The notes beneath the pieces are model-generated. The model worked only from the letters and a program-made list of their open reading frames with translations, ran no database searches and was not told the origin of the DNA. The translations under genes and the position numbers were made by a program. A stretch of DNA of 6,181 nt from Myxococcota bacterium (lineage in GTDB: Bacteria; Myxococcota_C; UBA6777), in the NCBI GenBank assembly GCA_023150835.1, contig JAKLKB010000210.1, positions 1-6,181 on the forward strand. Reading direction: 5' to 3'. Shown here piece by piece: positions 1 through 6,181 of this stretch; the first letter of the stretch is position 1, and every line of letters begins with the position of its first letter.

Positions 1-1838
1 CCGTCTTCGTCCAACGTCGCTTTGTGTTGAAGAGAGACCTTCAACCTGTCCGCAAACCATCGTACCCAACGATGTGCAACCTCTGGAGTAGGCCGTAAAA
101 AGCGCGTTCCGATGGTGCTTTCGGGATCGGCCACCAAACAACGCGCCGAAAACCCCAGATCCGTCAACATCCCATCCGCAAGCAGATCGGCGCTGGCTTT
201 TGGCTGGATCTGCAAATGCAGCGACAAGCGCCGCCCACTCAACACTTCGTAATCTGCGGCCCTTGGGCGATCCAGATCCCCTCCATCCCATAGCTTATTG
301 AGCGTGCTGACGGTACGCATCCGTTGCTCTTTGGACATGGAGAAACCACCGAGAAACGTACCGCCTTCGTCATTTAGCAAACCTTGGGCAAGCTGCCCGA
401 CCTTGAGGATGCGAAACAAGCCCTCTTGCGTAGGTTCTTTGACCTGTAGGATCGGTTGCCTCGGTGGTTTCGGTGGTTCTGTGGGTGGCCCACTTTCGTT
501 GCGTAAGCGTTCTTTTTCGCTGGTTTGCCAACGCCACAACGCGTCGTTGTAGTCCAACTTCTCTTGTTTGTAGTCGGCTTCCAATTGCCGCTGGTATTCG
601 TGGATGCCGAGTGTTGCGAGGCGATCAATCGCGGTTTTTCGTTCGCCGGATTGGGCGACCGAGACGAAAAAGCACGAAGTGGGCTGCGAAGAAGTCTCGG
701 GGCCACCGAGACCCGGTATGGAGATGTCGGCGATGTGCTGCGTTGCGACCGCTGTTGCGGCCAGAACAGACTGCGCGCAAAGAACGTAGGGAGCGCGTGT
801 GATCTCATGGATTGCTTCGATCACGGGATGGAGGGAGATCTGCGGAAACTCCCCAGCCTTCGGGCGTTCGGGAACAATGGGCAGGGGATCCATCGGCAGA
901 CCTTGTGCGATGCGATAAAGCTCCGGCCAACGCTTGAAGTTCTCAAAAGCCCCCTTGTCAGCGGAGCCAGAAAGACCAGCGGTATCCTCGAAGACAAAGG
1001 GGGTTTCCGCCACAAGTTGTTTGATCTGCTCGGATGTTCGGCCAAGTCGGTGATACCAATCGTAGACATCTTCGCCTTTTTCGAGATCAGGAAGCTCGAC
1101 GATCTTGATCGTTCGTACGCCAACCCCTTTGAGGATATCCGCCACTTCTTGTGCGTATTTTTTTCCTGCGATATCGGCATCTGGGAGGATCACGATGTCG
1201 CGTCCTTGAAGTGCCGTCCAATCGGTTTTGGCGGCGGCGTTTGCGCCTCCTGCGCTCGTCACCGAAAACAAGCCCTGTTGGGTGTTTGCAACGCACTTTT
1301 TCTCGCCTTCGACCACATAGATCGGGCCGTTTGGAGGGAGTGCTTCGCTTTGGTAGAGCGGGCGCGGCCCTTCGAGATGCGCTTGATACCAACGCTCCCC
1401 GATCTTCGAGACGGGGCGGATGATCTTTTTCCCATCACGCCCTTCCCATCGGCAAACCACACAGGCGGGTTGGCCTTCTCGCATGTAGATCCACGTTCCC
1501 GAAGGCTTGCCGAGCTTATAGGCTTGGATCGCTTCGTTGGCTGTGGAAAAAGCCTTGCCTTCGGGCTGTTTTGTCGGTGGGGTTGTGGTGGAAGAAGCCG
1601 CATTCGGCAAGTCCAAGGCCGAAAGGATGTCCTCGAAAGAGCAACCTGCGTGGCAACACAACAGGACGTTGCCATCGGCATCGGTTCCAATCGAAAGCGA
1701 ACGGTGCTGATCGTCATGAGAGGGACACTTTGCCTCCCATTGACCGTGTTTTCGGGTCGCTTTGACACTTTCCAGACGGCCTAGAATCGTGGAGATACTC
1801 CTGTTCCTTCGGGCGTTTTGGCCTTGGTGAGCAGTCAT
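1..1838 (-). CDS. TOPRIM/DUF3987 primase-helicase-like replication protein (3' end off the window)
   Basis: This probably starts or supports replication of the excised element. About 612 codons are visible and the C-terminus lies beyond position 1. Reading the minus strand from ATG 1838 (AAGGA ribosome site just upstream) gives a CHC2-type zinc-binding motif (C38-P-S-H41 and C62-H-A-G-C66). A TOPRIM domain follows, with E177 in VVEGEKK and D220/D222 in LPDAD. A DUF3987 (YfjI-like) domain begins near residue 330, with the P-loop-like SVAQSGERKT at 393-402 and an acidic LLNDEGG motif around D490/E491. A Lys/Glu/Pro-rich insert separates these two motifs. Known for the family: such proteins occur in phages, satellites and integrative elements and are taken to be primase/helicases. 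It is the second gene leftward, 121 bp after the small regulator at 1960-2241. Domain calls come from motif recognition only; enzymatic activity is inferred. Confidence 0.88.
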   Translation of the reverse strand, partial: MTAHQGQNARRNRSISTILGRLESVKATRKHGQWEAKCPSHDDQHRSLSIGTDADGNVLLCCHAGCSFEDILSALDLPNAASSTTTPPTKQPEGKAFSTANEAIQAYKLGKPSGTWIYMREGQPACVVCRWEGRDGKKIIRPVSKIGERWYQAHLEGPRPLYQSEALPPNGPIYVVEGEKKCVANTQQGLFSVTSAGGANAAAKTDWTALQGRDIVILPDADIAGKKYAQEVADILKGVGVRTIKIVELPDLEKGEDVYDWYHRLGRTSEQIKQLVAETPFVFEDTAGLSGSADKGAFENFKRWPELYRIAQGLPMDPLPIVPERPKAGEFPQISLHPVIEAIHEITRAPYVLCAQSVLAATAVATQHIADISIPGLGGPETSSQPTSCFFVSVAQSGERKTAIDRLATLGIHEYQRQLEADYKQEKLDYNDALWRWQTSEKERLRNESGPPTEPPKPPRQPILQVKEPTQEGLFRILKVGQLAQGLLNDEGGTFLGGFSMSKEQRMRTVSTLNKLWDGGDLDRPRAADYEVLSGRRLSLHLQIQPKASADLLADGMLTDLGFSARCLVADPESTIGTRFLRPTPEVAHRWVRWFADRLKVSLQHKATLDED

Positions 1839-1922
1839 CTTTCTGTCCTTGCCCGTTATAACGCACGAGAGTCGGGCTGTTTGGGATGTGGCCCTCTCGG
1901 CCTGTCGGTTGGAGAAGAGATA

Positions 1923-1942
1923 CTCTCGGATATAGGCGAGAG
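1923..1942. repeat. Small inverted repeat in the gap upstream of the primase gene
   Basis: CTCTCG and CGAGAG flank an 8-bp loop. The CTCTCG sequence recurs around 1865-1900 in the same 121-bp gap. A second short palindrome, CGTTATAACG, lies at 1854-1863, close to the primase ribosome binding site. There is no T-run, so a terminator is unlikely; an RNA hairpin between the two leftward genes is possible. No gene was found in this gap. Confidence 0.35.
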
Positions 1943-1959
1943 CAGAGGAGGTAAGAGGG

Positions 1960-2241
1960 TTATCTCTCCGAACAATTCGGCTGAATCACGTATGTTGTGC
2001 AAGCAGGCGTTCTTTGAATCGATGTTTCTTCGCTTGTGGGAGGAACTTCGTTGTGTTCGGGTGCAAAATCCCACATCAGCACATCAAAGTTTGTGGCTTG
2101 CTCAATTCGCCTTGCCATCGCGATGGAGGGTGTTCTCCTACCCGCCACATAATGCCCAACGGTAGAGCACGAAACACCAAGCTTGTCAGCGAATTGCTGA
2201 AGCGTGATCTGGTTCTTCTTCAAATAGTCTTTGAGCTTCAT
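1960..2241 (-). CDS. Small Cro/XRE-type DNA-binding regulator
   Basis: A 93-aa protein with an N-terminal lambda-repressor-like helix-turn-helix. Residues about 3-55 (MKLKDYLKKNQ, then LQQFADKLGVSCSTVGHYVAGRRTPS) show the Q-x3-A-x3-G-V-S-x3-V pattern of the HTH and the usual GRRTPS turn. The C-terminal 40 residues are unstructured-looking and not recognised. The start at 2241 is chosen over the upstream in-frame ATG at 2280 because AGGAGG lies 6 nt before it, while the longer form would begin inside the promoter. It is the first gene of the leftward module, followed by the primase, and is divergent from the XRE gene at 2372. By analogy with phage Cro it may control the lysogeny-to-replication switch; this is inference from position and size. 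Confidence 0.8.
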   Translation of the reverse strand: MKLKDYLKKNQITLQQFADKLGVSCSTVGHYVAGRRTPSIAMARRIEQATNFDVLMWDFAPEHNEVPPTSEETSIQRTPACTTYVIQPNCSER

Positions 2242-2258
2242 GGGTACCTCCTGCGACA

Positions 2259-2287
2259 GTTGTACATAATGCGGAATCACTTGTCAA
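2259..2287 (-). promoter_or_regulatory. Leftward promoter of the regulator-primase module
   Basis: On the minus strand a perfect -35 box TTGACA (2282-2287) is followed after exactly 17 bp by TACAAC (2259-2264). Transcription would start about 10 bp upstream of the AGGAGG of the gene starting at 2241. The spacer and -10 contain TTGTACATAATG (2260-2271, plus-strand reading), which differs at one of 12 bases from the sequence inside the rightward promoter at 2885-2896. It is therefore a likely operator half for a common repressor. Confidence 0.65.
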
Positions 2288-2315
2288 GATCGTGTTGTAC
2301 AAATAGTGCAATGTC

Positions 2316-2342
2316 TTGCTATCGCTGTACGCCATGTATAAG
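2316..2342 (+). promoter_or_regulatory. Possible promoter of the central XRE repressor
   Basis: TATAAG at 2337-2342 is a good -10 box 30 bp before the ATG at 2372. The best -35 is TTGCTA at 2316-2321 with a short 15-bp spacer, so the assignment is weak. GTAC-containing motifs (TTGTACAAATAGTGCAA at 2295-2311, an imperfect inverted repeat, and CTGTACG at 2325-2331) lie just upstream or inside it. They could be binding sites for autoregulation by one of the XRE proteins. Confidence 0.35.
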
Positions 2343-2371
2343 ATGAGACAGATTCAAGCACGGAGGGATAT

Positions 2372-2686
2372 ATGTTAGGCGAACGAATCAGGGCGCTAAG
2401 AAAGCAGAAAGGCTGGACGCTAAAGGACTTGGCAGAAAGGGCAGACGTAAGCTGGTCGATGATCTCTCATATCGAAAGGGGAGAGCGGACGGGAACCATG
2501 CAGATACTCGCCAAGATCGCCGAAGCCTTGGATGTCAGTCCTTCTCTTCTTCAAGAGGATGTGGAGCCAGAACAATTGGAGGACATTTCTCGGGCGCTGG
2601 AAGGGATGGCGACTCTGTCGCGTGAGCAAATGAAAATCGTTCTCTCTGTGATCGAAGGTCTTCGATCAACTTCAAAACAACCTTAA
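2372..2686 (+). CDS. XRE-family transcriptional repressor (CI-like)
   Basis: A 104-aa protein with a textbook HTH_3 domain at residues about 4-60: IRALRKQKGWTLKDLAERA, then DVSWSMISHIERGER, then ILAKIAEALDVSPSLL. The last 35 residues are a helical tail (LSREQMKIVLSVIEGLRS, residues 82-99) typical of short XRE regulators, where it may serve dimerisation. There is no peptidase domain, so induction by RecA-type autocleavage is not expected from this protein. The start at 2372 has GGAGGG 4 nt upstream. The gene is divergent from the Cro-like gene and lies between the leftward replication and rightward integration modules, so it is the best candidate for the master repressor. Its 3' end overlaps a convergent ORF and contains a 20-bp palindrome. 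Confidence 0.85.
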   Translation: MLGERIRALRKQKGWTLKDLAERADVSWSMISHIERGERTGTMQILAKIAEALDVSPSLLQEDVEPEQLEDISRALEGMATLSREQMKIVLSVIEGLRSTSKQP

Positions 2687-2762
2687 GATCTTTTCTTGAT
2701 AATTCCAAAATCCCTATAAACCCGCACTTGAGCAACTCTTCTTTGGATAAGTTGTCGTACAT
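2535..2762 (-). CDS. Possible small protein resembling the repressor tail, convergent and overlapping
   Basis: A 75-codon minus-strand ORF from ATG 2762 (GGTGAG 4 nt upstream), overlapping the last 152 bp of the XRE gene. Residues 21-38, LSRKDLKVVLKLIEDLRS, match the repressor tail LSREQMKIVLSVIEGLRS at 11 of 18 positions with mostly conservative changes elsewhere. Only the final IE-x-LRS part is forced by the shared palindrome; the LSR...K..VL matches lie outside it. A promoter-like TTGACT-17-TATCTC lies upstream. Residues 39-75 simply read the antisense of the XRE gene and look uninformative. It may be a tail-only paralogue without a DNA-binding domain, able to pair with the repressor, or only a relic of an inverted duplication. 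Confidence 0.35.
   Translation of the reverse strand: MYDNLSKEELLKCGFIGILELSRKDLKVVLKLIEDLRSQRERFSFAHATESPSLPAPEKCPPIVLAPHPLEEEKD
2615..2702. repeat. Inverted repeat centred on a 20-bp palindrome at the repressor gene 3' end
   Basis: The core 2649-2668 reads TGATCGAAG-GT-CTTCGATCA, with perfect 9-bp arms. The flanks 2615-2648 and 2669-2702 are imperfect inverted copies that diverge mostly in a codon-like pattern, so both strands code for a similar 18-residue helix. In RNA the core forms a stem near the stop codon (2684-2686), but the run after it is not T-rich enough for a standard terminator. Confidence 0.7.
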
Positions 2763-2816
2763 TTTCTCACCTGCCGTGCAACCCGCCTCACTGAACTTAT
2801 ACAACGCTGATCTTAT

Positions 2817-2845
2817 GAGATACTGCGTACATGCACAGAAGTCAA
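2817..2845 (-). promoter_or_regulatory. Possible leftward promoter for the small convergent ORF
   Basis: The minus strand reads TTGACT (2840-2845), 17 bp, then TATCTC (2817-2822). The -35 is good and the -10 is poor. The spacer holds CATGTACG, related to the GTAC motifs at the other promoters. It would produce a leader of about 45 nt for the ORF starting at 2762, and it is divergent from the rightward promoter at 2874. Confidence 0.35.
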
Positions 2846-2873
2846 CGCATTATACACTTTGGAGATAAAGAAT

Positions 2874-2902
2874 TTGACAAAACATTTTACATAATGTAAA
2901 AC
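2874..2902 (+). promoter_or_regulatory. Rightward promoter of the excision/integration operon
   Basis: A perfect TTGACA (2874-2879) is followed after 17 bp by TAAAAC (2897-2902). The predicted transcript start is about 2909. The architecture and the sequence before the -10 (CATAATGTAAAAC) closely copy the leftward promoter at 2259-2287 (GCATTATGTACAAC on its own strand). That points to shared control of both modules. Confidence 0.6.
2885..2901. promoter_or_regulatory. Operator palindrome inside the rightward promoter
   Basis: TTTTACAT-A-ATGTAAAA is a perfect inverted repeat with 8-bp arms and a single central base. It covers the downstream spacer and most of the -10 box, so a bound dimer would block RNA polymerase. 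Size and symmetry suit an XRE-type repressor dimer. Its left half and centre recur at 2260-2271 in the leftward promoter. The bound protein is most likely the product of the gene at 2372 or at 1960; this is inferred. Confidence 0.6.
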
Positions 2903-2903
2903 A

Positions 2904-2951
2904 CTCCTATGCCTGCAACATCACCCGTTGCGTTCCGCAACGGCATAGGAG
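2904..2951 (+). promoter_or_regulatory. Inverted repeat enclosing the ribosome binding site of the Cys-rich protein gene
   Basis: CTCCTATGCC (2904-2913) is perfectly complementary to GGCATAGGAG (2942-2951), whose end is part of the AGGAGG ribosome site (2947-2952). A nested hairpin, CGTTGCG-TTC-CGCAACG, occupies 2926-2942. A transcript starting near 2909 would keep only 5 bp of the outer stem but all of the inner one. Full sequestration would need a start further upstream. Confidence 0.5.
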
Positions 2952-2956
2952 GCCCC

Positions 2957-3568
2957 ATGAACCAATCATCCTCCCCAAATTACCGCTATGTTCCTGCGTC
3001 TTTGTTGGTTGCGTGGATGGAAGAGGCACGCCGCCAGTCCGAAGAACTCACTCGACAGAAGACGACGATCACCAAGAATTTGAGCGCAACACGCCAAACG
3101 CTCGTGGATATCCACGCAGAGATCCAACGCCGCGCAGAAGTCTCATGGCGCAACCGTCTTCGTCTTGGTCTTCGCCCGATTCCTCCGATGGTCTCGACCC
3201 CTTCATCCATCCCCCCGACCCCTTCATCCATCCACCCAACTCCTGCGCCCGTTCCTCCGCCACCACCGCCGACTCCTGCCATCGCCTCGATCCCCATCAA
3301 AGAGCAGGGCAACGAGCAAGGCTGGGTGGAGCTTCGCCTCGACGAGTCCCGAACTTGCGGAGAGTGCGCGAACTTCCGTATCGAGAGAACTGGTGTGGAA
3401 GAACACCGTGGATACTGCTTTTATGTGGACGATTCTGTTGGGAGCCGCGCACCCGCGAGTGGATGCCCTCGCTTTGATCCGCTCCCCAAACCCTCTCCCC
3501 AAGCTGTATCTGCGCTTGATTCGCTCGCAACCCCCGAAGAGATGGAGATATGCGATGTGCGCCGCTAA
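2957..3568 (+). CDS. Unrecognised protein: coiled coil, proline-rich linker and four-cysteine motif
   Basis: A 203-aa protein with no assigned function. Residues about 15-75 are charged and helical, likely a coiled coil (WMEEARRQSEELTRQK onward). Residues about 76-115 are a Pro-rich linker with a duplicated TPSSIxP unit and a run of six prolines. Residues 134-173 hold C134-x2-C137-x16-C154-x15-C170-x2-F, a spacing that suggests a zinc- or iron-sulfur-binding fold. Similar CxxC...C...C-x2-F tails occur in small mobile-element proteins of unknown role. Start 2957 is chosen for AGGAGG 4 nt upstream; an in-frame ATG at 2909 is the alternative. It is the first gene of the rightward operon and overlaps the next gene by 14 nt. 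A regulatory or excision-accessory role is only a guess. Confidence 0.78.
   Translation: MNQSSSPNYRYVPASLLVAWMEEARRQSEELTRQKTTITKNLSATRQTLVDIHAEIQRRAEVSWRNRLRLGLRPIPPMVSTPSSIPPTPSSIHPTPAPVPPPPPPTPAIASIPIKEQGNEQGWVELRLDESRTCGECANFRIERTGVEEHRGYCFYVDDSVGSRAPASGCPRFDPLPKPSPQAVSALDSLATPEEMEICDVRR
3195..3233. repeat. 21-bp tandem duplication in the proline-rich linker
   Basis: CGACCCCTTCATCCATCC occurs at 3195-3212 and again at 3216-3233, an in-frame period of 21 bp (7 codons, TPSSIxP). It looks like recent replication slippage and should vary in copy number between related elements. Confidence 0.8.
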
Positions 3569-4271
3569 GCTTTTGACGGTGGCCACGTTGCCCCGCCAAA
3601 AGACGGGCCGACTTTGTGCGACCATCGCCAACAAGGTTCTTTTGTTAAAACGCGAAAAGACCCCGATTTTGCTCGTGGATACAAGCAAACTTCAAGCAGC
3701 ACAGACCTTTTCTGAGCACAACGAACATCGCATCGAGCTGATTCTGAACAAAGGCGTTTCGGCACTTTCGCATGATAGCTTTTGGGTTTCCACAACGAGC
3801 CTCGAAGAGTCGGAAGCTGTGATGGATTGGGTCTTTTGGGCGATGGCAGGTGAACAAGGAGACTTTCTCTTCTCTCTCGAAGACGAAAGTATGTTTTCAA
3901 CCAAGTGCGAAGCAGCACAAGTAGAAAAGAAAAATCCGCAACATGCGGAAGAGTGCGCCCCAGAGGACACAGCATGGAGCCGCCACAAGACACTTGCGCG
4001 GCTCCACGCTGCTGCAAAGGAAGTGGGGTTGGATCACGCTGGTATCAAGTCGTTGTTGCCGGTGGAGTGGTCTTTTCGGACATTAGAACAGCGGATGTTG
4101 GATGTGGTGATGAGGCTTCTTGGTGCAAAGCACATCGGGGCTTTACGCGAGGCGTGGGATGCCCATCCGTGCGCGGCATTGGTTCGCCTCAAAGATTACA
4201 TGAAAGAGCAACTCTTTCTCAAAGAAATGGGATGCGCGGACGTGTCAACGCGCCGAGGAGGTGGATCTTGA
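3555..4271 (+). CDS. Unrecognised 238-aa operon protein
   Basis: The function is not recognised. The start at 3555 has GGAG 7 nt upstream and overlaps the preceding stop by 14 nt, implying translational coupling. The open frame extends far upstream without such a site, so a longer form is unlikely. Residues 1-115 look globular and mixed alpha/beta (PILLVDTSKLQAAQTF, then DWVFWAMAGEQGDFLF). Residues 116-140 are a charged linker. Residues about 145-195 are helical: LARLHAAAKEVGLDHAGIKS, then LLPVEWSFRTLEQRMLDVVM. That block faintly recalls the helical repeat of the phage Mu GemA/gp16 type (H-x3-K-x2-GL-D-x8-L), but the match is too weak to assign. No catalytic motif or membrane segment is seen. 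Its stop codon overlaps the start of the excisionase-like gene (TGATG), so it probably belongs to the same regulatory or excision unit. Confidence 0.75.
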   Translation: MCAAKLLTVATLPRQKTGRLCATIANKVLLLKREKTPILLVDTSKLQAAQTFSEHNEHRIELILNKGVSALSHDSFWVSTTSLEESEAVMDWVFWAMAGEQGDFLFSLEDESMFSTKCEAAQVEKKNPQHAEECAPEDTAWSRHKTLARLHAAAKEVGLDHAGIKSLLPVEWSFRTLEQRMLDVVMRLLGAKHIGALREAWDAHPCAALVRLKDYMKEQLFLKEMGCADVSTRRGGGS

Positions 4272-4690
4272 TGCTGCCGCTTAGACTTCGACACGGCGAT
4301 GAAACCGCCAAGATGCTCGGCTATCCGAGCGCACACGCGCTACGTGCAGCGCGTTGTCGTGGCTACCTTCCCAAAGGTTCTTGTTACAAAGAGGGAGGTC
4401 ATTGGTATTACTTGCCACACGTCTTTTTGGAGAAACAAGATGGCCAAGAAATTACCCAGCGGGATACAGAGATCAGGCAAAACCTACCGCATTCAATTTC
4501 GGTCACGCCATACCAACCCAGGCATGATCTACAGCGAACGTCTTCCACAAGGCACAACCCTACGGAGTGCCGAGGCATATCTAGCGAAGCTGCGAGAAGA
4601 AGATCGCCAAGAGACGCTTCAATGGAGAGACGAGAAGAAACGAGAAAAAGAATCGCATCGGATCTGGACCATTGGCGACTTCGCAACTGA
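4271..4690 (+). CDS. Excisionase / AlpA-like small HTH protein
   Basis: Probably the recombination directionality factor, or an AlpA-type activator, for the adjacent integrase. Residues about 10-50 form a MerR/Xis-like winged helix: ETAKMLGYPSAHALRAARCR, then GYLPKGS, then GGHWYYLP, with the typical W-Y-x-LP strand after the wing. The start ATG at 4271 shares its A with the previous stop (TGATG) and has AGGAGGT 8 nt upstream. The frame stays open to a stop at 4688-4690 (139 aa), but the last 80 or so residues (after about 57) overlap the integrase gene in another frame. They are Arg/Ser-rich and look like an out-of-frame readout. The functional part is therefore likely the first 55-60 residues. 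Excisionase identity rests on fold-like motifs and position. Confidence 0.72.
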   Translation: MLPLRLRHGDETAKMLGYPSAHALRAARCRGYLPKGSCYKEGGHWYYLPHVFLEKQDGQEITQRDTEIRQNLPHSISVTPYQPRHDLQRTSSTRHNPTECRGISSEAARRRSPRDASMERREETRKRIASDLDHWRLRN

Positions 4691-5549
4691 GATCTACCTA
4701 CCACACTGTGCGGCTTCCAATCGACCCTCAACGTTAGAGAGAAAGGTTCAAGAATTTAAACGCATCGGCCCTTGGTTTTGGGATCTGCGCCTGGATGGTG
4801 TGGATGCGGCGACGGTGAGTCGCTTTGCAGCGGAGAGAAAAGCGGAGGGAGTAAGGGCGAGAACAGTCAACATAGGAATCGCGCAGATCAAGCACCTACT
4901 GAATGTTGCTCATGAATTGGGCTTTCTTATCCATCCCCCACCGAAGTTTCGCCGTCTTCCTGAAAAGGATAAGAAGTCTGTGCGTTGGCTATCAAGAGAC
5001 GAGATAGAACTCGCCCTCGCCAACGCAACAGCAAAAGGGGAAGTTTGGAGGGCGCTATGTTTGTTTTTGCTGGGGACAGGGGCTAGGTGGGGCGAAACAC
5101 GCGCTCTTCGCTGGAGCGATCTCGACTTGGAAGAGGGCATCGTGACCTTTCACGGCCACACAACGAAAGGGGGGAAGGATCGGATGATACCGTTATTGCC
5201 CGAAGTGGTTAGCGCCTTGGCTTCGCTGACTCGTCTTGGTGATCTGGTGTTTATGCATCGGTGGCGAGAGAAAGTCTGCCCCATGCCCGTAGATGGAAAA
5301 CTGGGTGGGGATGTCTATCCGTGGGATGGTGAAGGGTTATCGGCCTCACCACACGTATTGCGTCATACGTTTGCGGCGATGAGACTGAGGGGAGGAGTGG
5401 GAATGGAAAAAGTCCAAAAATGGCTCGGTCACAGCACCATCAGTCTAACCGTCGATACATACGGTCACATCGTGCCGGAGGAACATGCAGAAGAGATAGC
5501 GAAGGGGTATCATGCAGGGACAAGACCGACCTTGCGAGCGGTGAAATAG
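4440..5549 (+). CDS. int: Tyrosine recombinase / integrase
   Basis: A 369-aa site-specific recombinase that would integrate the element at the neighbouring tRNA-Leu and, with the excisionase, excise it. An N-terminal arm-type DNA-binding domain spans residues 5-65 (GIQRSGKTYRIQFRSRH). A SAM-like core-binding domain spans about 75-165, and the catalytic domain about 183-355. The active-site set is complete: R216 (GTGARWGE), K243 (TTKGGKDR), H305 and R308 (SPHVLRHTF), H331 (WLGHS) and nucleophile Y341 (VDTYGH). Start 4440 has GGAG 7 nt upstream; an in-frame ATG at 4299 has no such site and would add an out-of-frame-looking peptide. It is the last gene of the rightward operon, ending 95 bp from the tRNA 3' end. 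Its first 251 bp overlap the excisionase-like frame. Confidence 0.93.
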   Translation: MAKKLPSGIQRSGKTYRIQFRSRHTNPGMIYSERLPQGTTLRSAEAYLAKLREEDRQETLQWRDEKKREKESHRIWTIGDFATEIYLPHCAASNRPSTLERKVQEFKRIGPWFWDLRLDGVDAATVSRFAAERKAEGVRARTVNIGIAQIKHLLNVAHELGFLIHPPPKFRRLPEKDKKSVRWLSRDEIELALANATAKGEVWRALCLFLLGTGARWGETRALRWSDLDLEEGIVTFHGHTTKGGKDRMIPLLPEVVSALASLTRLGDLVFMHRWREKVCPMPVDGKLGGDVYPWDGEGLSASPHVLRHTFAAMRLRGGVGMEKVQKWLGHSTISLTVDTYGHIVPEEHAEEIAKGYHAGTRPTLRAVK

Positions 5550-5561
5550 GCGAGTGCAGAT

Positions 5562-5581
5562 TTGTCACCACCTTGTCACCA
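5562..5581 (+). repeat. Paired direct repeats, likely integrase arm-type sites
   Basis: TTGTCACCA occurs at 5562-5570 and 5573-5581, an 11-bp period that places both copies on the same face of the helix. They lie between the integrase stop and the tRNA 3' end, where arm-binding sites of tyrosine recombinases usually sit next to the crossover. Function is inferred from position and spacing. Confidence 0.5.
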
Positions 5582-5644
5582 GAGGGAAAAAAGGAGAGGA
5601 AGGAGCGATGTGTAGATGCGGCGAAAGTCGCGGATGGAAGGGGA

Positions 5645-5690
5645 TGAGCGAGGTGGGACTCGAACCCACACTGGAAGGATTTTAAGTCCT
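5645..5690. other. Probable attachment-site junction (element end) in the tRNA 3' half
   Basis: Elements of this integrase family recombine within the anticodon or T arm of a tRNA and restore its 3' end with their own copy. Integrase placement and the lack of other genes between it and the tRNA put the junction here. The partner repeat would lie beyond the left edge; no second copy of the tRNA 3' sequence was seen within the window, so the exact core cannot be fixed. Confidence 0.6.
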
Positions 5691-5717
5691 TTGTCTCTAC
5701 CTTTGGACTACTCGCCC
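5645..5717 (-). tRNA. tRNA-Leu (anticodon UAA) with a short variable loop
   Basis: The 73-nt minus-strand cloverleaf has acceptor stem GGGCGAG/CTCGCTC (one G-U pair) and discriminator A. Its D arm is of the Leu kind (GTC/GAC stem and a large loop with GGTAGA). The anticodon stem is AAGGA/TCCTT with loop CTTAAAA, giving anticodon TAA. The variable loop is CCAGT (5 nt) and the T arm is GTGGG-TTCGAGT-CCCAC. CCA is not encoded. Standard bacterial tRNA-Leu has a long variable arm, so the 5-nt loop is abnormal. The gene reads toward the integrase, so the 3' part is the integration target; the sequence up to the crossover on that side is contributed by the element. Confidence 0.9.
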
Positions 5718-5846: not shown

Positions 5847-6023
5847 GTGTGATCTGCAGGGTGATACGAAATCCGCCTCTTGATACGAGATCCGCAGGGT
5901 GTGTGATCGCAAAACGTAGGGGCAGACAGGTGTGGCTGCCCAACGATCGGGTGTCTACGCACTATCCTACGGGAACACTTCACACGGATATCGTATGATA
6001 CGAAATCCTGTGATTGTGTGATC
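5847..6023. repeat. Alternating two-motif repeat array in the chromosomal intergenic region
   Basis: Motif A, TGATACGARATCC, occurs at 5862-5874, 5881-5893 and 5996-6008. Motif B, GTGTGATC, occurs at 5847-5854, 5901-5908 and 6016-6023. Each A is exactly 7 bp from a B: B-7-A, then 6 bp, then A-7-B, then a distant A-7-B. An inverted copy of A (GGATATCGTA, 5986-5995) abuts the third A with 3 bp between them. No gene is visible in 5718-6153; this array, the tRNA promoter and the palindrome at 6056 are what the stretch holds. Confidence 0.7.
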
Positions 6024-6055: not shown

Positions 6056-6075
6056 GGGCGGTTCGCGAACCGCCC
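6056..6075. repeat. Perfect 20-bp GC-rich palindrome
   Basis: GGGCGGTTCGCGAACCGCCC is a perfect palindrome that in RNA gives an 8-bp stem with a CGCG loop. No T-run follows on either strand, so it is not a standard intrinsic terminator. GC-rich palindromes centred on TTCGCGAA are found as dispersed intergenic repeats in many bacteria, which is the likeliest identity. It lies 79 bp upstream of the gene starting at 6154. Confidence 0.8.
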
Positions 6076-6153
6076 CATTGGCATCAGGTTAAGAAGTAAA
6101 AGCAGATTCTTGTGGCATAATGGCGCACCTCAAAACGCGAAAGGGGAATAGAG

Positions 6154-6181
6154 ATGTTCACACAAAGCGCCGAAGCACAAG
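6154..6181 (+). CDS. Start of a chromosomal gene (partial, unidentified)
   Basis: ATG at 6154 is preceded 7 nt upstream by AAGGGG (6141-6146), and the frame reads MFTQSAEAQ to the window edge. A CATAAT box at 6116-6121 could be its -10, but no convincing -35 accompanies it. Nine residues are too few to name the product. It lies outside the element and reads away from it. Confidence 0.5.

Follow-up and report, generated by a model that had tools for sequence, protein, structure and literature searches.

The DNA examined here (the window, 6,181 bp) is an entire contig, C178, from an assembly of 7.56 Mb in 239 contigs that derives from an uncultured bacterium related to the Myxococcota. It probably contains the core of a small element that integrates at a tRNA gene, comprising integration and replication genes and an immunity cassette of the lambda type, in which one repressor would silence two operons. 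From left to right the element comprises the genes for a primase and a Cro-like protein, operators, the repressor gene, further operators and a promoter, the genes for a Cys-rich protein and a protein of 238 amino acids (aa), xis, int and a tRNA gene (Table 1), and all reading frames of the window are open. Open reading frames (ORFs) and family matches bear out the gene content and directions given in a first-pass annotation of the same DNA, which had also remarked that two of the right-hand genes lack a recognised function; the Cys-rich and 238-aa proteins indeed match no family. Because the window is a complete contig, the element is truncated within the primase gene, and for this copy the DNA to the left of the primase is absent from the assembly.

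The two operons are headed by promoters of matching design. The pattern TTGACA-N17-TANAAC, proposed by the first-pass annotation as common to both modules, has exactly two perfect matches in the window, one at each module promoter, against 0.04 expected even with one mismatch allowed, and the word TNTACATAATG, also said to be shared, occurs only twice, each time within one of the two promoters (0.01 expected). At each promoter lies a pair of candidate operators. With up to two mismatches, the 17-bp dyad TTnTAC-N5-GTAnAA has six matches in the window against 1.17 expected, and all but one lie in the two control regions; since this consensus was derived from the very sites that it counts, a consensus-free test of four sites is the fair one. 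This test looked in each copy of the element for a set of four 17-mers resembling one another, one pair located between the divergent genes and the other ahead of the Cys-rich gene, with the distance within a pair free to vary from 22 to 60 bp but equal in both, and compared the result with 200 dinucleotide shuffles per copy. A comparison of the two control regions by 30-mers was likewise significant for the window.

The first-pass annotation had suggested a search for the same gene order in other genomes. Two further copies exist, one with the full core on contig C33 of the same genome and one as fragments on contigs C263 and C189 of a same-genus genome, G001, which were treated as a single copy by assumption. 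In the four-site test the best spacing was 35 bp in the window (score 67, shuffle maximum 60), 35 bp in C33 (score 84, maximum 60) and 34 bp in G001 (score 68, maximum 62), and 0/200 shuffles reached the observed score in each copy. Each copy has a different operator word, which reads TTnTAC-N5-GTAnAA in the window and GTATTC-N5-GCATAC in C33 and is a TCAC...GTGA dyad in G001; within a copy the word recurs at both module promoters, and its register is the same. Anchored on the -35 box, the left and right promoters of one copy have 15/24, 17/24 and 13/24 bases in common (window, C33 and G001, respectively), and promoters of different copies 5-9/24; the anchors were picked by eye, which makes the four-site test the stronger of the two. 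A third operator-like site, a 30-bp step past the second operator (O2), is present in the window and in G001.

Compared with the window, the primase protein is 92% identical in C33 (612 residues) and 96% in G001 (383 residues), the Cys-rich protein is 91-92% identical and the 238-aa protein 88-89% identical in the other copies, and the three repressors are mutually 42-47% identical. In a three-way DNA alignment, identity per 40 bp is about 0-65% in the region of approximately 1880-2915 and mostly 70-100% in the flanks, a drop which indicates that a single cassette, made up of the Cro-like gene, the repressor and both promoters, has been exchanged. C33 has the same divergent layout of cro-like and repressor genes as the window. 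The pattern of operator words and spacings is as expected if each cassette brings its repressor together with its own operators at both promoters. The integrase too has diverged between copies, being 57% identical in the window and C33 (Xis, 47%). As a further observation, the G001 Cro-like reading frame is just 53 aa long (L021:1610-1771) and is followed by unrelated sequence up to the primase.

It is proposed that, while the element is integrated, the XRE repressor of 104 aa would bind the paired 17-bp operators at both promoters, the left of which would drive the Cro-like and primase genes and the right the genes for the Cys-rich protein, the 238-aa protein, Xis and the integrase, and that the third operator would allow the repressor to control its own gene. 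Loss of the repressor would turn on both operons, upon which the element would excise and copy itself, using an origin that, judged from the C33 copy, may lie inside the primase gene; exchange of the whole cassette would let copies escape each other's repressor. The first-pass proposal that one repressor silences replication and excision together is sustained as far as the operators go, the copy-specific words being matched at both promoters in all three copies; binding by the XRE protein, joint derepression and the ensuing excision and replication are presumed. The operators might alternatively be mainly sites of the Cro-like protein, which would close both operons after a burst of expression, with the XRE repressor limited to the divergent region. 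The Cro-like gene belongs to the same exchanged cassette, so that operator words would change along with it, yet G001 keeps operator pairs at both promoters with its short Cro-like frame, and this account is considered improbable. In lambda-type switches repressor and Cro share operators, and Cro binding would therefore not exclude binding by the repressor.

In lambda, the immunity region and its neighbours run in the order replication genes, cro, operators, repressor, operators and promoter, xis and int. The window resembles lambda and phage 434 in this gene order, in having one repressor with operators at two promoters and in existing in versions with other operator specificity (here by sequence), as well as in the divergent repressor and cro genes and a cro operon running into replication genes. 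It differs in the short repressor, the paired sites 34-35 bp apart, the DUF3987-type primase and the lack of any phage structural genes seen. Lambda has two tripartite operators, and 434 is a heteroimmune relative of it (PMC6550527). No self-cleaving C-terminal domain was detected in the 104-aa repressor, for which helix-turn-helix (HTH) families were the only matches, and the inducing signal is thus probably not RecA-driven self-cleavage. By these comparisons the predicted switch works like that of lambda, in an element that is not a lambdoid phage.

On the replication side, the DUF3987 domain scores 150.5 bits in the window and 216.8 bits in C33, above the Pfam cut-off of 27. The C33 primase has 1068 aa, and the 3' part of its gene contains 26 words within one mismatch of TGTCGCAA inside the coding sequence (L009:6035-6812), 17 in one direction (L009:6035-6546) followed by nine inverted (6655-6812). 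Synonymous codon shuffles of this gene gave a mean of 8.5 such words and a maximum of 14, and since the two groups of words encode different peptides, selection is probably on the DNA. The array may constitute an iteron-type origin within the initiator gene. Phage and plasmid records contained distant relatives of the primase only, none covering 80% of the query; those on plasmids are 23-34% identical and many are annotated YfjI. A stretch resembling a tRNA T arm, CTCGGTTCGAGTCCGAG, lies just upstream of the G001 primase (L021:2268-2330), with a related stretch in C33 (L009).

At the other end of the element, the tyrosine integrase gene adjoins the 3' end of the tRNA gene in the window. Contig C202 terminates with the exact 100 bases that open C33, an overlap by which the C33 integrase gene comes to lie next to a tRNA-Leu(CAA) gene, so that one genome holds two copies at two different tRNA-Leu genes, (UAA) in the window and (CAA) in C33. 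A tandem word just after int may provide integrase arm sites; C33 has a different word, GTGGGTAG, with the same 11-bp step and in the same place, as candidate arm sites. In the related genome G002, a 3' fragment of the UAA tRNA that begins in the anticodon loop resembles an attachment-site (att) remnant and suggests that this tRNA serves as an integration site in the family. The window tRNA, read as tRNA-Leu(UAA), has 73 nt and is without the long variable arm that leucine tRNAs of bacteria usually have; G002 and G004 contain relatives that share its anticodon, and one search pattern for a long-arm UAA tRNA gene gave no match in the genome of the window.

Several findings weigh against the existence of an active element under the control of a single repressor. 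A generic sigma-70 scan listed neither promoter and found nothing above chance, the -10 boxes being weak, and comparison of the two control regions by single 17-mers was not significant in the window and G001 copies, as would be the case if two AT-rich promoter regions merely resembled each other by chance. That explanation is nevertheless hardly credible, given that three copies show one design with words unrelated to each other, that the shuffles never reached the observed scores and that exact promoter matches are in excess. No clear third operator over the repressor promoter emerged for C33 in the four-site analysis. The G001 primase gene has few TGTCGCAA-like words, and the window copy ends before the region of the array. 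A second copy of the tRNA 3' end, that is, the left att, was found neither in the bin nor on C33, C263 or C189, and the shortened Cro-like frame in G001 suggests that some copies may be decayed. The last two points would also suit an immobile leftover of some larger prophage or island, with a layout that is inherited and inactive, as would the ending of the G001 copy near a host-like Clp gene. Such a remnant is unlikely, since all frames of the window are open, the operators are retained and two copies occupy two tRNA-Leu genes of one genome.

The first-pass annotation had advised extending the sequence leftward to the second att copy, and would have been refuted by a full phage or conjugation gene set there. 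Both points are answered in part: in C33 the DNA beyond the primase, as far as its proteins were scanned, is without a recognised set of either kind, no left att was found, and the left side of the window is missing. Beyond its primase C33 encodes small genes, a UvrD/PD-(D/E)XK protein, an N6/N4 DNA methyltransferase and a ResIII protein, apparently a restriction-modification-like cargo, followed by an IS1-type transposase, a TPR protein and a cluster of orphan genes, and in G001 a host-like Clp ATPase gene follows within approximately 230 bp of the primase. Mobilizable or conjugative integrative elements also hold an integrase, an Xis-like protein, a repressor and a primase, and here such transfer genes could be in the DNA that is missing to the left of the window; C33 also ends without an att copy. 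Among the window and C33 proteins scanned, with left ends incomplete, no relaxase or conjugation family was recognised, and this origin is judged quite remote. Nor were packaging or capsid-hijack genes recognised in the same set. The orphan cluster, of at least five genes, recurs in the same order in C33 (L011:3363-10811) and on contig C74 of G001 (L039), with 38-56% identity in the three pairs aligned, and no element gene was seen on C74. Its C33 genes were considered as capsid genes; they had no family, viral-contig or significant solved-structure match, and this assignment is not claimed.

Among small integrative elements, Staphylococcus aureus pathogenicity islands (SaPIs) and other phage-inducible chromosomal islands share with the window an integrase, a primase, one HTH master repressor (Stl) and palindromic operators in the divergent intergenic region, those of SaPI1 Stl containing TGTACT boxes (PMC9638917). 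Here, in contrast, a second matched operator pair accompanies the distinct int/xis promoter; packaging genes were not recognised, and no helper is known. The primase belongs by Pfam to the YfjI/DUF3987 primase-helicases of plasmids and islands, from which it differs in its N-terminal Toprim part and, in C33, in a tail at the C terminus for which the iteron-like array codes. P4-like satellites are also compact elements with int and primase, and are described as carrying variable anti-phage genes (PMC9122126); in the present element no P4-type hijack genes were recognised and the primase gave no match to P4 alpha in Pfam and PHROGs scans.

It is possible, if rather doubtful, that these copies represent an as yet undescribed family of small integrative elements or satellites, seen so far in one genus, in which lambda immunity logic would be joined to a replicon built on a DUF3987 primase and an origin inside its gene, together with Cys-rich and 238-aa proteins for induction or transfer and with cargo of the restriction-modification type. 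Immunity-cassette exchange is classically known from temperate phages. If the proposed control is correct, such exchange would be at work in small integrative elements as well, in a bacterial group that has been little studied, and a genome with two differently immune copies shows how they could coexist; the design predicts that each repressor binds its own operators only, at both promoters. The two conserved proteins without family lie at positions in which one would look for functions in induction or transfer.

Table 1. Predicted features of the window, with the basis of each assignment.
Feature	Position	Strand	Basis
Primase-helicase (Toprim + DUF3987), first 612 residues	3..1838	-	PF13148 E 9.3e-44, PF13155 E 1.2e-5; open at contig start
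Exchanged immunity cassette (Cro-like gene, repressor, both promoters)	1880..2915 (about)		three-copy alignment
Cro-like HTH gene	1960..2241	-	ATG at 2241; PF01381 E 3.7e-10
Left promoter, TTGACA-17-TACAAC, for cro-like and primase genes	2259..2287	-	pattern match
Candidate left operator O1, inside left promoter	2260..2276		sequence
Candidate left operator O2, 35 bp from left O1	2295..2311		sequence
Third operator-like site, over likely -10 of repressor gene, 30 bp beyond O2	2325..2341		sequence
XRE repressor, 104 aa	2372..2686	+	PF01381 E 2.6e-16
Candidate right operator O2, 35 bp upstream of right O1	2850..2866		sequence
Right promoter, TTGACA-17-TAAAAC, for Cys-rich, 238-aa, xis and int genes	2874..2902	+	pattern match
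Candidate right operator O1, perfect dyad TTTTACATAATGTAAAA	2885..2901		sequence
Leader hairpin CTCCTATGCC...GGCATAGGAG, covering Shine-Dalgarno of Cys-rich gene	2904..2951	+	stem conserved in three copies
Cys-rich protein, no known family	2957..3568	+	ORF opens at 2909, likely start 2957
238-aa protein	3555..4271	+	no family match
Xis-like protein	4271..4690	+	HTH_17 weak, E 0.047, below cut-off; 3' part overlaps int in other frame
Tyrosine integrase	4440..5549	+	PF00589 E 9.5e-23; phrog_1 E 4.9e-52
Tandem word TTGTCACCA, repeated 11 bp apart, candidate integrase arm sites	5562..5581	+	sequence
tRNA gene, UAA anticodon, presumed attachment gene	5645..5717	-	

For the Cys-rich protein, the later start is the likelier because the extension upstream of it is not common to relatives; AGGAGG precedes this start. 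The protein has no Pfam, NCBIfam or PADLOC match, no significant PHROGs match and no relative in viral contigs; the genome collection was not searched for it. The 238-aa protein was found only within the genus, in searches that covered 98 relatives, phylum members and the genome collection, and not in viral contigs, and its structure model (predicted local distance difference test, pLDDT, 42) is too poor to be of use. The Xis label is a matter of sequence pattern only; the helix-helix-beta-hairpin model of the protein is of low confidence (pLDDT 46) and too poor to be of use.

A predicted transcription start inside the 5' arm of the leader hairpin made it attractive to suppose that the hairpin blocks translation of read-through transcripts from the repressor gene; folding gave low exposure of the Shine-Dalgarno sequence with and without this arm, and the idea was abandoned. 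In the region 2904-2990 an alternative pairing reaches into the coding sequence. Two repeats lie to the right of the tRNA gene, one of about 115 bp at 5881-6004 with more than 30 copies genome-wide, and a second at the right end of the window (6056-6181), which recurs near the ends of several other contigs and is probably the reason why the contig stops.

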